From: Halobacteriovorax sp.
Lineage (GTDB): Bacteria > Bdellovibrionota > Bacteriovoracia > Bacteriovoracales > Bacteriovoracaceae
Reading direction: 5' to 3'
Assembly (NCBI GenBank): GCA_002720865.1
Contig: PBIO01000016.1
Span: 1-48,771, forward strand
DNA length: 48,771 nt
The notes under the pieces are model-generated. The model saw only the letters and a list, made by a program, of their open reading frames with translations, had not been told where the DNA came from and did no database searches. Each line of letters starts with the position of its first letter. Position 1 is the stretch's first letter. Shown piece by piece: positions 19,649 to 45,585 of this stretch. Both the position numbers and the translations under genes were made by a program.

Positions 19649-19671
19649 AAAAAAAAGGCCTATATGCCCTT
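19649..19671 (-). terminator. Possible intrinsic terminator after the CCA/HAD gene
   Basis: On the minus strand AAGG and CCTT arms enclose a short loop and are followed by eight Ts. The hairpin overlaps the end of the coding region including its stop codon. The stem is short, so confidence is moderate. Confidence 0.45.
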
Positions 19672-21540
19672 AAGAGCTAATTCTTTAATCGTATTAACGG
19701 ATTTTCCGGTTTCATGAAGAATACCCAGGCCTCCTGCAGCATTCCATGTGCTAATCGTACTAGCTTTATCATCAATTAAAATATTTGAAATACCAGCCGT
19801 AACAGCATACTCGGATTTCATTTTTGCAGAACGAACTATTACCTCTGAAGGAACTGGGCTTAGCCACTTGGTAGTCCACTGCTTTTTCCCATCTGCAGCC
19901 GTTGGAGCATCAATTCCATTACGCATATTGATAGGTGCAGTAAGTAACTTAACATCAAATCCAGAATTATTAATATATGACCATAATGCTCCGATACCGT
20001 CGTCTAAGGGTAGAAGACTAGCAAAAAAAGCTCCAGGTGCAAAACTAATTGCCGCATACATCAATGTACGTACAAAGGGTAAGTTAAGATCTTTCTTTGT
20101 TCGAGGGCGCCAACGGGGTCCTGAAGTATCATTTATATTTCTTATCGCCCTTCGCATAGACTTAGAATTCTGAACCCAGTCGGCACCTACAGTACCATCT
20201 AAAATCTTGCTGCAAAGCTCAATAGCACCGGTTTCAAAATCAACCAACACACCATCCATATCACAATATATTGTTGACTTGGGTGTTATATCAGGTTCCC
20301 TATTATTATTTTGCTGTTGTTCATGCTCAAGTTCTTCGTTTAAAATAGACCTGATTAGGGCACGAACTTCTCCTACTAATGTGCTATATGCTTCAGCCTC
20401 TGCATCATTCATTGCCTTACCTATGGCCGGCCCCTTTATCCCCTGGGCCATAAGATCCTTAGGATTAACTGCTGGTGGTGCATCGGCAAACTTTAGAAAA
20501 GCCTGGATGATGGATTCCGAAGGTGCACCCATAACCCTTGAGTACTCCTTAACCGTCGTCAACTGAATATCGAATCGGTTGTAATCTTTCTTAAGGGACG
20601 GTGCTGACTCCTTTGATATAGTTCCAAACCCGAGTAAGAACCGAATTGCTTTTTGTTCATCATTCGAGTATGTCATATTCTTAAGAACTGTGGAAACGGC
20701 GTCCTTAGAATTGTAGCTAAGGATTGCTGCAATTTGTGCTATAGGGTCGCTCGTTGAAGCCGGCATAATTTTTATATCTAATCCAGGAAAAATCTGTCTA
20801 AATAAGCCTAACTCTTTTGTTAAATGCAGAAAGTGATTTACATCCTTGGCGGATGATATCCCCTTTATAAACTCATCCCTAATTCTTTCAGGTGAAACTT
20901 CACTCAATGTATTGTCATTAAGAATGGCCTGCTTAGTCTCTGGATCTAAATCGGATCCCATTCTGCCGGCGAATCTTACGGCACGCAGAATTCTTAGGGG
21001 ATCCTCATCGAATCTCTCGGCCGGATCGCCAACTGCCTTAATGACCCCATTTTCAATATCGCTTATGCCACCGACATAGTCAACCACCTCACGTGTATCC
21101 ATATCATAGAAGAGTGCATTGATCGTAAGGTCTCTTCGATTGACATCATCCTCGATTGTCGTAAACTTCACAGAGTCCGGACGTCGGCCCTTGCCAATAT
21201 CTTCTCTAAATGTTGCTATCTCATATTCGCCACCCGCGCGCGTCTTCACCCTTACAACACCAAATGATTCACCAGTTAAATCAAGTCGCAACTGGCCTTG
21301 GCTCTGTAGTATCTGGATAACCTTATCAGGGACGGCATCGGTTGCCAGGTCATAGTCCTTCGGTGTCTTACCAAGCAGCACATCACGTACGGCACCACCA
21401 ACAACATATAATTGTTTTCCGGCACCCTTCATTCGTTTATGAATATCCTGCAAGTCAGCAGGTATTGGCAGATCCATGGATTGTCTCACCGGTTCCTCCA
21501 GCGTCATTGCTTCTCTTATGTAAGCATATAATATATTCAT
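19660..21540 (-). CDS. Leader-bearing CCA-tRNA nucleotidyltransferase fused to a HAD-like domain
   Basis: 626 residues. Residues 1-16 are a capsid-leader-like helix (MNILYAYIREAMTLEE). The poly(A) polymerase/CCA-adding core follows: V-V-G-G-A-V-R-D (46-53), D-Y-D-L-A-T-D (62-68, catalytic Asp pair) and the R-R-D-L-T-I-N-A segment, with the R-I-L-R-A-V-R-F-A region after it. After about residue 385 comes a second leader-like helix (ALIRSILNEELE, 394-405), a Q/N-rich linker and then a HAD-like domain starting C-D-M-D-G-V (426-431). In T4-like phages packaged proteins carry such leaders. The fusion suggests two cargo proteins joined. Confidence 0.8.
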   Translation of the reverse strand: MNILYAYIREAMTLEEPVRQSMDLPIPADLQDIHKRMKGAGKQLYVVGGAVRDVLLGKTPKDYDLATDAVPDKVIQILQSQGQLRLDLTGESFGVVRVKTRAGGEYEIATFREDIGKGRRPDSVKFTTIEDDVNRRDLTINALFYDMDTREVVDYVGGISDIENGVIKAVGDPAERFDEDPLRILRAVRFAGRMGSDLDPETKQAILNDNTLSEVSPERIRDEFIKGISSAKDVNHFLHLTKELGLFRQIFPGLDIKIMPASTSDPIAQIAAILSYNSKDAVSTVLKNMTYSNDEQKAIRFLLGFGTISKESAPSLKKDYNRFDIQLTTVKEYSRVMGAPSESIIQAFLKFADAPPAVNPKDLMAQGIKGPAIGKAMNDAEAEAYSTLVGEVRALIRSILNEELEHEQQQNNNREPDITPKSTIYCDMDGVLVDFETGAIELCSKILDGTVGADWVQNSKSMRRAIRNINDTSGPRWRPRTKKDLNLPFVRTLMYAAISFAPGAFFASLLPLDDGIGALWSYINNSGFDVKLLTAPINMRNGIDAPTAADGKKQWTTKWLSPVPSEVIVRSAKMKSEYAVTAGISNILIDDKASTISTWNAAGGLGILHETGKSVNTIKELALKGI

Positions 21541-35836: not shown

Positions 35837-36982
35837 CTATTCTTTAGTTAAGATATGTGTATTGCTCTCAGCGGCCCCTGAAGAAGATTGTTTAATAAAT
35901 TTTGCCTTTGATTGAAGCGTCGAAATATTTTTGGCACCGCTATAAGATAGCCCAGATCTTATACCGGTAAGCAAGGTTTGCAGGATATCACCAACAGGAC
36001 CTTTACACTCAACCCTGGTTGCAACACCTTCTACTGATGAAGGGTATCCCCTCCATTCAATTTGAGCCTCAGGCGATGCCATACCCCTATAGGCCTTATA
36101 TTTCTTTGTATCATCAGTCAAGGATTCATTTACCGACAGGCCTGGTGCACAGACAGCTGATGCTGTCAGTGTTGTTGACACGTAGTACTCATACTCGTCG
36201 ATTCCATCAACTTCAACCTCACCAGGAGTTTCATCTGTACCTGACAGTAAAGAGCCCACCATCACAAAGTCGGCGCCGGCTGCCAAAGCCTTGACAATAT
36301 CTCCGCTATTCCTGATTCCGCCGTCTGCAATTAATTTAACATCACCAGCATATTGAGACTGTGCACAATCGATTACCGACTGTAGCGTTGGGACACCATG
36401 CCCTGTTTGTGTTCTTGTTGAACAGATAGACCCTCCACCGATACCTACTCGAATACTATTTGCACCCCAAGTTGCAAGATCATCAAAGGCTTTTACAGTT
36501 GCAACATTACCAGCCATTAAGTGGACAGTATTTCCAAAAATCTTTCTTAGTTCAAAAAGAGCATTCTTCATTAAAATATGATGACCATGTGCAATATCGA
36601 CACAAAGAATTCTTGCACCTGCATCATAAAGTGCTGTAGCTCTATCAATATAATCACCAGAAACCCCCACTGCCGCGGCAACGGCAGATGAGCCCTTATG
36701 ATTTTCTTCAATTAATCGGTTTGATAAATTTGCAACAATCTCTGCTTGTTCTTTAATTGAGTTGTATCTATGTACGATCCCCATGCCACCGGACGACAAC
36801 ATAGAATATGCCATTTCATCTTCTGTAATGGTGTCCATAGGGCTAGAAATTATTGGCAATCTAAAGTGGTAATTTATATTTTCTAATTTTGAGCTTAAAT
36901 CAATCTCTTTTCTGCTAGACACATTTGAGTACTGGGGTACCATAAGCACATCATCAAAACAAACGCCAAACTTTAATCTCAT
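35837..36982 (-). CDS. IMP dehydrogenase/GMP reductase family, CBS-less
   Basis: 381 residues. F-D-D-V-L-M-V-P near the start, S-S-P-M-D-T and the active-site G-G-S-I-C-S-T-R with Cys187 identify the family; [11 protein letters not shown] and [12 protein letters not shown] are phosphate-binding parts. The tandem CBS regulatory domains of typical IMPDH are absent (residues 71-100 join directly). IMPDH versus GMP reductase cannot be separated. Would alter guanine nucleotide pools. Confidence 0.88.
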
Positions 36983-43223: not shown

Positions 43224-44015
43224 CTATACCTTCTGCCGGCGCTTACCAATCATATTGATACCTAGCTCCAACATCGTGCCATTGACAAGGGTAGGATAAA
43301 CCAGCTGGCCGCGGTCAGTAACATAAGGAGCGTCAGCAATCAGTGCCACCTGGCCCTTATAATACCTCATATCCCCGATTACGTGCGACGGATTATCAAG
43401 CTCTTCAAAAATTTTCTTAAAAGCCTTAAGCAGCTTATTACATGCCCACTCATCTAGATGGGGCTCTTCAAGAGACTGGTGGGATGGGGCGCGATCCTTC
43501 CAATTAATCCAGCTATTAACCTTTTCGTAAGCCTTTGCGGTGCCAACACGGTGCTGAAAATAATATTCATTCTTCGAAGCAGCAATACGGATAGCAAGAC
43601 GAAGCTTTTCAATAAGCTCATCAGATGGAATCCACTTACCTTCCAGTTGGATTTTCTTAGCTTCAGCCATCATATTATCAAGCCAGGATTGCTGCTTTTC
43701 GCTAAGATCCCACCCCATCCGGATTTTACTGGCAAAGTCCAACATAACCTTTCGGCGGTGTTGCATGCCGTCAAGATTTGCAGACTCAGTAATCTTCGCA
43801 ACTAGCTCCGGAGACTTTGCTTCAGGGACACCTTGCTCAATAATAGAATCAAGCCACGCGCGTCGTTTTGGGCTCAGTCCGCGACCGTTCCGAAGACGAT
43901 ACTCCATATCAATCGCAAACCTACAATTCCTTGAATTTTCAAGGCCGACCTCAGTATAACCAGCAATTAGTGCCTGGGTTTCAGAAAGTCTAAGTTCGCG
44001 GGATTTTCTAGTCAT
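43224..44015 (-). CDS. Phage hypothetical protein with internal repeat (263 aa)
   Basis: Residues 47-62 (LSPKRRAWLDSIIEQG) and 104-119 (LSEKQQSWLDNMMAEA) are a duplicated unit of two helices. The C-terminal 100 residues include G-D-M-R-Y-Y-K-G-Q-V-A. Driven by the promoter at 44064-44094, with a 5' hairpin in the leader. Role unknown. Confidence 0.65.
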   Translation of the reverse strand: MTRKSRELRLSETQALIAGYTEVGLENSRNCRFAIDMEYRLRNGRGLSPKRRAWLDSIIEQGVPEAKSPELVAKITESANLDGMQHRRKVMLDFASKIRMGWDLSEKQQSWLDNMMAEAKKIQLEGKWIPSDELIEKLRLAIRIAASKNEYYFQHRVGTAKAYEKVNSWINWKDRAPSHQSLEEPHLDEWACNKLLKAFKKIFEELDNPSHVIGDMRYYKGQVALIADAPYVTDRGQLVYPTLVNGTMLELGINMIGKRRQKV

Positions 44016-44034
44016 TTGGTATCTCTCAATTTAA

Positions 44035-44057
44035 GATGGGGGCCAATCCCCACCATC
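44035..44057 (-). promoter_or_regulatory. 5' leader hairpin
   Basis: 8-bp stem with one bulge (GATGG+GGG arms), 6-nt loop, at the predicted start of the transcript from the promoter at 44064-44094. Could stabilise the mRNA. Confidence 0.5.
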
Positions 44058-44063
44058 AAGTAT

Positions 44064-44094
44064 ATAATACCATAGTTTGGCAGATTTTGCACGA
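44064..44094 (-). promoter_or_regulatory. Minus-strand promoter CGTGCAAA-N16-TATTAT
   Basis: TATTAT at 44064-44069, 16-base spacer, TGCAAA at 44086-44091 with CGTG extension. Reads into the 263-residue gene. Confidence 0.75.
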
Positions 44095-44103
44095 AAATGC
44101 AAC

Positions 44104-44270
44104 AAAAAATGAGGAGAAGCTGATAGACTCTGTATTATTTGAGAGATCTTTCAACCACCGGGTGTAATTGAATCGGTGCACCGACTCCTATGAACACCTC
44201 CCCCGGGGGTCAGGGGTCGACGGTGGGATACTCAATCAAATAAATACATAGAAATATCAACTTCTCCTCA
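44104..44270 (-). ncRNA. Structured RNA candidate with terminal U-run
   Basis: Lies in a 275-nt gap between the ligase end (44291) and the promoter above. Outer 16-bp helix: 44110-44125 pairs with 44255-44270. The only imperfect pair is C-A read on plus but G-U on minus, so the minus strand is favoured. The helix continues inward (UGUAU/AUACA, UAUUUGA/UCAAAUA, GAG-AUC/GAU-CUC, CCACCG/CGGUGG) to a branched apex with GGUGU/ACACC, UCGG-UGCA-CCGA and a CCCC/GGGG pairing. Six Us follow on the minus strand, as in a terminated small RNA. Confidence 0.65.
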
Positions 44271-44290
44271 TAACTAAATATACGGTAAGA

Positions 44291-45523
44291 CTATCGATCA
44301 TTTCGAAAGTGAATAAATGTAGGAAATCTTAAAGAACCATCCGGGGTTACTTCTTGATATCGAACCTCAACTATTTTACCGATATAATCATCAGGACTAT
44401 CCCATATTAGCTTTCGAAGTTCATCATTTAGTCCCGAACCCACCCCGACCTCAACGCCGTTATAGTCAACAACTAAATTTCCACACATTCCCTTAAATTT
44501 CCCGTTTCCCTCCTCAATGCGTAGTACCATAACATCAGCGTCCTGGAACGATTTTACCTTCATAACCTCGTACCCGCGGCCGCGGCGATATAGGGCATCA
44601 AGATCCTTAATCATAACACCTTCATATCCCTCTGCAACGAACTGATGGTGGTATAGATTGACTTGATCAACACATGCCAAAATTATGTGTCGTGGAATTA
44701 ATGAAAGATATTTTGCTGTAGTCCCATAAGCGTTGAACCTTTCTTCAAGAGCTAAACGCCGGTGGTGACATGTCAATCCGGGCTCATTATTCACCCAGTC
44801 ATCAAGAGGAAGAAAATCAAATAATGATAAATATGAATCCTTAGTATCAACATTTTCTTTTCGATATGCCTGACGCATTAGAGCAACAAAGTCTTTGCCC
44901 ATGATCTCGCCATCATAAAAGCCATCACCAAGAATTGACAACTCAAGACCGATTGTATCATCAAAATTCGTTATTTGTTTTCCAGACCTAGCATAAAGAG
45001 TTGCGACGCCAGAACGAACGATTGCGCAACATCTAATTCCATCAAGCTTTGGCTCTAGTGCGACTACCTCTTTTCCCTTAAGGCGCTTTGGCTCAAACTT
45101 CTGAGCTAACTGAACATCAAAGGTAGGAATTAGTCCAGGAAATACTGAATTGATCGTTTTTGTAGAAATACCAATAGCTAGATGCTTTTTTAAAACTTTA
45201 CGCATCCATTTCTCCTCTTCTAAAGTAGAAGAAGTTATAGCTATTTTCATCATTTCCAACGCGGCATTGCCGGTATGATATCGTTCAGAACAGAGCTTTG
45301 CACAATCGAGGAATAGGTTCCACCGATCAATCTCTGCATGGCCATGTTGTCTAGACTTTGAAACTTTTGGAACCTTGACAACGTTAAATACGATGTATGG
45401 ATCATTTGCATATTGCAAAACACGTTTCAACAAAGCATTATTAGAGTTGTCTAATAATATCTGCTTCTTCGAATTTGTCCCTCGTGTATTTTTAATCGTA
45501 GTTAAAATTTCAGAAACTAACAT
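44291..45523 (-). CDS. ATP-dependent DNA ligase
   Basis: 410 residues. E-P-K-L-D-G-I-R (motif I, adenylated Lys159), Y-D-G-E-I-M, E-G-V-M-I-K and E-V-M-K-V-K-S (motifs IIIa to V) and an OB-fold C-terminus typical of phage ATP ligases. Seals nicks in phage DNA. Start at the ATG after GAGGTG rather than an upstream GTG; a promoter lies just upstream (45545-45575). Confidence 0.9.
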   Translation of the reverse strand: MLVSEILTTIKNTRGTNSKKQILLDNSNNALLKRVLQYANDPYIVFNVVKVPKVSKSRQHGHAEIDRWNLFLDCAKLCSERYHTGNAALEMMKIAITSSTLEEEKWMRKVLKKHLAIGISTKTINSVFPGLIPTFDVQLAQKFEPKRLKGKEVVALEPKLDGIRCCAIVRSGVATLYARSGKQITNFDDTIGLELSILGDGFYDGEIMGKDFVALMRQAYRKENVDTKDSYLSLFDFLPLDDWVNNEPGLTCHHRRLALEERFNAYGTTAKYLSLIPRHIILACVDQVNLYHHQFVAEGYEGVMIKDLDALYRRGRGYEVMKVKSFQDADVMVLRIEEGNGKFKGMCGNLVVDYNGVEVGVGSGLNDELRKLIWDSPDDYIGKIVEVRYQEVTPDGSLRFPTFIHFRNDR

Positions 45524-45544
45524 AAGCACCTCGTGTCTAATTAA

Positions 45545-45575
45545 ATAATAACACGTTCTACTTATTTTTACACGG
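45545..45575 (-). promoter_or_regulatory. Minus-strand promoter CGTGTAAA-N16-TATTAT
   Basis: TATTAT at 45545-45550, 16-base spacer, TGTAAA at 45567-45572 with CGTG extension, directed at the ligase gene. Confidence 0.7.
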
Positions 45576-45585
45576 AGATATTATA

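Follow-up and report, generated by a model that had tools for sequence, protein, structure and literature searches.

The window, by which we mean the whole stretch of DNA analyzed, is an entire contig of its assembly and comprises 48,771 bases. Bases 1-30500 of the window are 99.9% identical to bases 70229-100728 of a 101-kb viral fragment, IMGVR_UViG_2788500220_000014, which puts the length of the phage at about 119 kb or more. Since no 16S gene was detected in a search of the assembly, the window probably represents a phage contig that was sorted into a bacterial bin. On the minus strand, an ATP-dependent DNA ligase gene occupies 44291..45529 (PHROG 114, E 4e-106; Pfam ligase domains) and ends with a TAG stop codon at 44291-44293. 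The next gene, at 43224..44015 on the minus strand, encodes a 263-aa protein with no known family, which by protein comparison is 60% identical to its counterpart in the nearest relative. In both phages, the interval between the ligase gene and the 263-aa gene contains a structured element followed by a promoter.

Folding of both strands delimited this element as a single closed structure of 163 nt at 44109-44271 on the minus strand. The minimum free energy of a 196-nt stretch on this strand was -73.9 kcal/mol, compared with a mean of -44.5 kcal/mol for dinucleotide shuffles (z = -7.18), and none of the 200 shuffles was equally stable; the plus strand of the same stretch reached -67.2 kcal/mol with a z of -6.3. 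In a local-fold scan of the window with spans of up to 200 nt, no other fold found was as significant as that of the element. It is present once in the window and once in its own assembly. The first-pass annotation had proposed a previously unassigned structured RNA of about 160 nt, spanning 44104-44270, in a gap with no gene. The structured RNA is borne out by the shuffles, with its extent corrected to 44109-44271, and it lies between the ligase stop and the next promoter, with no open reading frame of at least 60 aa over the element. A coding RNA was rejected on the same count.

On the minus strand, the element is closed by a helix of 17 bp, continues in a second, segmented helix, and branches at a three-way junction into two hairpins. 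The 5' arm of the closing helix P1, AUGAGGAGAAGUUGAUA, lies at 44255..44271 (positions 2-8 are the same in the relative), and its 3' arm, UAUCAGCUUCUCCUCAU, lies at 44109..44125, as determined by folding and by pair comparison with the relative. The helix had been described as 16 bp long; its length is 17 bp on the minus strand, including one U-G wobble where the plus strand has an A-C mismatch, in agreement with the earlier claim that the sole imperfect outer pair becomes a wobble on the minus strand. The segmented helix P2 pairs CU with AG, UGUAUU with AAUACA, AUUUGA with UCAAAU, GAG with CUC, and AUC with GAU; its 5' side (44227..44251) contains the conserved UUGAUUGAGUA, and its 3' side occupies 44128..44148. 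Next to the latter is a one-sided internal loop of 6 nt, UUGAAA (44149..44154), for which the relative has AGGG. P3 is formed by CCACCG (44221..44226) and its partner CGGUGG (44155-44160), with 3 of its 6 pairs showing a two-sided change in the relative. Hairpin A (44200..44216), CCCCUG-ACCCC-CGGGGG, carries a C-rich loop and is directly preceded by a conserved GA, while hairpin B (44161..44198) is composed of a GGUGU/ACACC stem, an internal loop, and a 7-bp GAGUCGG/CCGAUUC stem capped by a UGCA loop; both were identified in the folds of the window and the relative. Six consecutive Us occupy 44104..44109, where the closing helix ends; the first of these is still paired, as the last base of the helix.

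A ligase search of viral contigs identified the nearest relative as IMGVR_UViG_3300008954_000048, a 65.7-kb contig with a 75% identical ligase. It shares many genes in the same order with window positions 33-48 kb, and several tRNA genes align by sequence. A 54.6-kb near-copy of this contig ends inside the element. A structural homologue of the element was found in the relative at the syntenic site, after the DNA ligase and before the next promoter. A covariance model based solely on the window sequence matched the relative's element over its full length (E 3.7e-8, a rough value owing to short calibration), and the same model stripped of base pairs matched the window only and missed the relative. 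The relative's best fold had an energy of -64.6 kcal/mol, and constraining it to the window architecture gave -64.5 kcal/mol, a gap of 0.1 kcal/mol. Among 42 alignable pairs, 23 were unchanged, 12 had two-sided changes, 7 had one-sided changes, and none was broken, a count biased toward structure because the alignment of the interior helices was structure-guided. P1, by comparison, was aligned gap-free from the element ends and showed four two-sided and three one-sided changes with no broken pair; all 17 of its pairs survived random 3' substitutions in only 0.015% of trials. The letters common to both phages cluster in P1 positions 2-8 (UGAGGAG/CUCCUCA), in UUGAGUA, and in GACCCC..CCCC..GGGGA. 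Compensatory changes between homologues, the mark of a conserved structured RNA, were thus present, and the search for covarying copies in related phages, on which the first-pass annotation had staked its proposal, turned out in its favor. We are highly confident that this RNA is both structured and conserved; the homologues amount to two independent ones and a truncated near-copy.

The comparison also bears on the strand. In the relative, the ligase-sense strand folded to -64.6 kcal/mol and the other strand to -46.4 kcal/mol, so that a good fold exists only in the ligase sense, and 12 of the 59 pairs in the relative's fold are G-U. Given the poor folding of the opposite strand and the many G-U pairs, the conserved form is, as judged from these folds, RNA of the ligase strand (window minus) rather than a DNA palindrome, and the earlier preference for the minus-strand RNA is upheld. 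A DNA structure, such as a cruciform or an origin-linked hairpin, or an old miniature inverted-repeat element would account for the terminal inverted repeats and for the folding of both strands in the window. However, the energy difference in the relative and the G-U pairs, which a DNA palindrome would not favor, speak against it, as do the retention of pairs through compensation, the single copy, and the identical place in both phages, and we regard this explanation as highly improbable. The origin-linked structure was one of the options initially listed for this site and is the one disfavored here; the others, a 3' UTR element or a processed RNA, were retained following promoter mapping.

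The recurring promoter form of these phages is TTCGTGYAAA-N15/16-TATAATAT. Exact copies occur at sites 44097 and 17202 of the window and at sites in the relative and in the 101-kb fragment. Allowing up to two mismatches, the form was found directly upstream of the ligase start at 45576 in the window and 12978 in the relative, and directly downstream of the element at 44095 and 11452, respectively; the loose pattern also matches shuffled sequence, and weak internal matches therefore mean little. The ligase promoter, CTCCGTGTAAAA...TATTATT, lies at 45541..45576 (minus strand; homologous site in the relative, 12978 on the minus strand), and that of the next gene, TTTTCGTGCAAAA...GGTATTATATA, was located by the pattern scan at about 44068..44098 on the minus strand and is conserved in the relative. 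Both promoter places are thus conserved between the phages. The scan, with up to two mismatches, found no promoter form between the ligase stop and the element in either phage, and the element begins 19 nt after the ligase stop in the window and 7 nt after it in the relative. Because the promoters flank the ligase and the element together, a transcript with the ligase as its one gene would carry the element at its 3' end; most simply, the ligase appears to be a one-gene unit with the element as its 3' untranslated part. Just downstream of phage-type promoters, we also observed a hairpin-capable G-rich leader, GGTGGGGAATGGNNCC..ACC, at the apparent start of several phage transcripts. Its sites, all on the minus strand, are 44040-44070 in the window, 11452 and 22691 in the relative, and 30646, 32789, 34305, and 38332 in the 101-kb fragment, and it is a possible shared 5' leader element.

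This promoter map also weighs against a stand-alone gene for a trans-acting small RNA, which would be transcribed from a separate promoter where the ligase gene ends, with the first helix base as its start. In both phages, a -10-like hexamer does lie 6 nt ahead of the helix (window, TATATT; relative, TATAGT), and it would make the first purine of the helix the transcription start. Yet the hexamer is weak, sigma-70-like promoter matches occur at chance level, and the phage-type promoter form, which recurs at other places in these phages, is absent from this one; moreover, antisense matches to phage leader regions were not above chance. Such a gene is therefore unlikely in our estimation. Somewhat less unlikely, though still doubtful, is an oversized intrinsic terminator or mRNA 3' cap and nothing else, in which the branched interior would have no function of its own. 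The 17-bp helix with the U run immediately after it and the location, with one unit ending before it and the promoter of another following, both fit such a terminator, and in the window six Us directly follow a G+C-containing closing-helix stem that encloses a branched interior of about 130 nt; no terminator other than the closing helix and U-run was seen in the window. In the relative, however, UUUC comes after the element, and 11 nt behind it, ahead of the next promoter, lies a distinct and strong intrinsic terminator, a 13-bp hairpin with its own U-run. Since the relative retains the full branched fold alongside this terminator, something other than termination probably accounts for the conservation of the fold. 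The covarying interior helices and the conserved specific letters of the apex likewise count against termination as the sole role, and the fold is probably more than a terminator. A T-tract adjoins the promoter in both phages, and the U-run of the window may be a promoter-side T-tract rather than part of the element. The terminal U-run originally noted here is accordingly present, with six Us reading from 44109 to 44104 on the minus strand, while it may lie outside the element, in view of the relative's T-tract, which adjoins the promoter at the homologous place, and of its separate terminator.

The fold, its compensatory conservation, its strand, and its fixed place between the ligase stop and the next promoter are all shown by the sequence. 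We consider it somewhat better than an even bet that the element is a conserved structured RNA forming the 3' end of the one-gene DNA-ligase transcript of a large phage, with capping, processing, and core roles as proposed in this paragraph. The best reading would make it a conserved RNA module of the 3' UTR that may also be set free as a stable RNA of about 165 nt. The long closing helix would cap the ligase mRNA against 3'-5' exonucleases and, together with the U-run in the window, would probably also end transcription. As a long helix, it is a plausible RNase III-type substrate, and cleavage by a double-strand RNase could yield the stable RNA of about 165 nt. The conserved three-way-junction core (GAGUA, GACCCC..CCCC..GGGGA) may be the working part and could bind a protein or RNA partner. 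In terms of sequence alone, position and promoter map are compatible with a 3'-UTR-derived or processed phage sRNA. A bolder and more tentative proposal, which we hold to be possible without favoring it, is that the element represents a new phage RNA family, a ligase-linked RNA of about 165 nt derived from an mRNA 3' end, whose C-rich-loop junction core would bind a host or phage factor and act in trans during infection.

Phage T7 early mRNA has intergenic hairpins that are processed by RNase III. Like the element, these are long helices that mark the borders of transcripts in a lytic phage, and both would leave a folded mRNA 3' end. The element differs from the T7 hairpins in its length of about 163 nt, in the conserved three-way junction at its core, and in its place at the 3' end of a unit made up of one gene behind a promoter of its own, and cleavage is here only inferred. 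The element also resembles 6S RNA, a long rod with a closing stem, in length, rod shape, and closing stem; it has a three-way junction instead of an open central bubble, and 6S RNA was rejected on this ground and for want of an Rfam match. Rfam 15 at gathering thresholds returned no family for the element in the window or the relative, which supports the earlier description of it as previously unassigned, and at E <= 10 the window element matched only a chance microRNA. A C4-type or leader-antisense phage RNA was likewise rejected, since in each phage the longest exact complement to a leader was 9 nt, no more than the mean for shuffled sequence.

Among phage RNAs, GOLLD and ROOL are structured noncoding RNAs without known function that are often found near tRNA genes (PMC12286853; PMC7567579), and they form large RNA-only complexes (PMC12286853). 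They are hundreds of nucleotides long and oligomeric, whereas the element is about 163 nt, has one junction, and matches nothing in Rfam. Phages often produce abundant noncoding RNAs without a known role, as in ICP1 and satellite (PLE) transcripts (PMC7567579) and in phage K (PMC9241854), and one of these intergenic RNAs lies between inverted repeats (PMC7567579, PMC9241854). Those RNAs are known from expression by RNA-seq, and the element from sequence conservation alone. It matches no Rfam-listed phage RNA, is much smaller than GOLLD and ROOL, and would act most like a structured mRNA 3' end. Most phage structured RNAs without known function came from comparisons of many genomes; here, the support comes from two large phages, both uncultured, between which compensatory change is strong. 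The element is a previously uncatalogued orphan phage RNA that can be searched for in future phage sequences, and since it belongs with a defined transcript of just one gene, that of a replication enzyme, its role, be it 3' cap, terminator, or trans-acting RNA, is directly testable.

We extended the search for copies to several collections. A nucleotide search of 50,697 phage records found no similar DNA. In pattern scans of viral contigs (C-rich hairpin; TTGAGTA..GACCCC), among the matches listed, only the known relative and its truncated near-copy were genuine, and the others were put down to chance after a look at their sequence, overlap with ORFs, or fold. Model searches and fold scans of other ligase and endolysin relatives revealed no homologous element, and scans of genome contigs found no copies. 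Across 129 genomes, in the order and class sets alike, the element model matched only its own assembly, and a protein search for the downstream 263-aa gene in 369 genomes of the phylum did the same, both being weak negatives because a first look by the genome search also missed the known copy in the relative. The near-identical 101-kb fragment covers window positions 1-30500 only. In a distant 223-kb relative, IMGVR_UViG_3300007513_000004, no copy was detectable by model search or fold scan, a point against the preferred reading. This phage encodes a tmRNA and has very strong folds at 43961-44149, 50066-50284, and 51366-51601, none of which matches the element model; two of these regions carry repeated hairpins of the TTGCCCAA..TTGGGCAA type.

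Elsewhere in the window, TTATGTACTCACGGAGAAGTTTCAT is repeated five times on the minus strand between 24224 and 30830, at gene starts, indicating that these genes share a similar N-terminus. The N-terminal half of one long ORF at 19660-21540 (minus strand) matches a tRNA nucleotidyltransferase and the C-terminal part a deoxyribonucleotidase, so that the ORF is a possible fusion of the two. At 35837-36982, also on the minus strand, lies a phage-borne IMP dehydrogenase-like gene, whose copy in the nearest relative is 63% identical.
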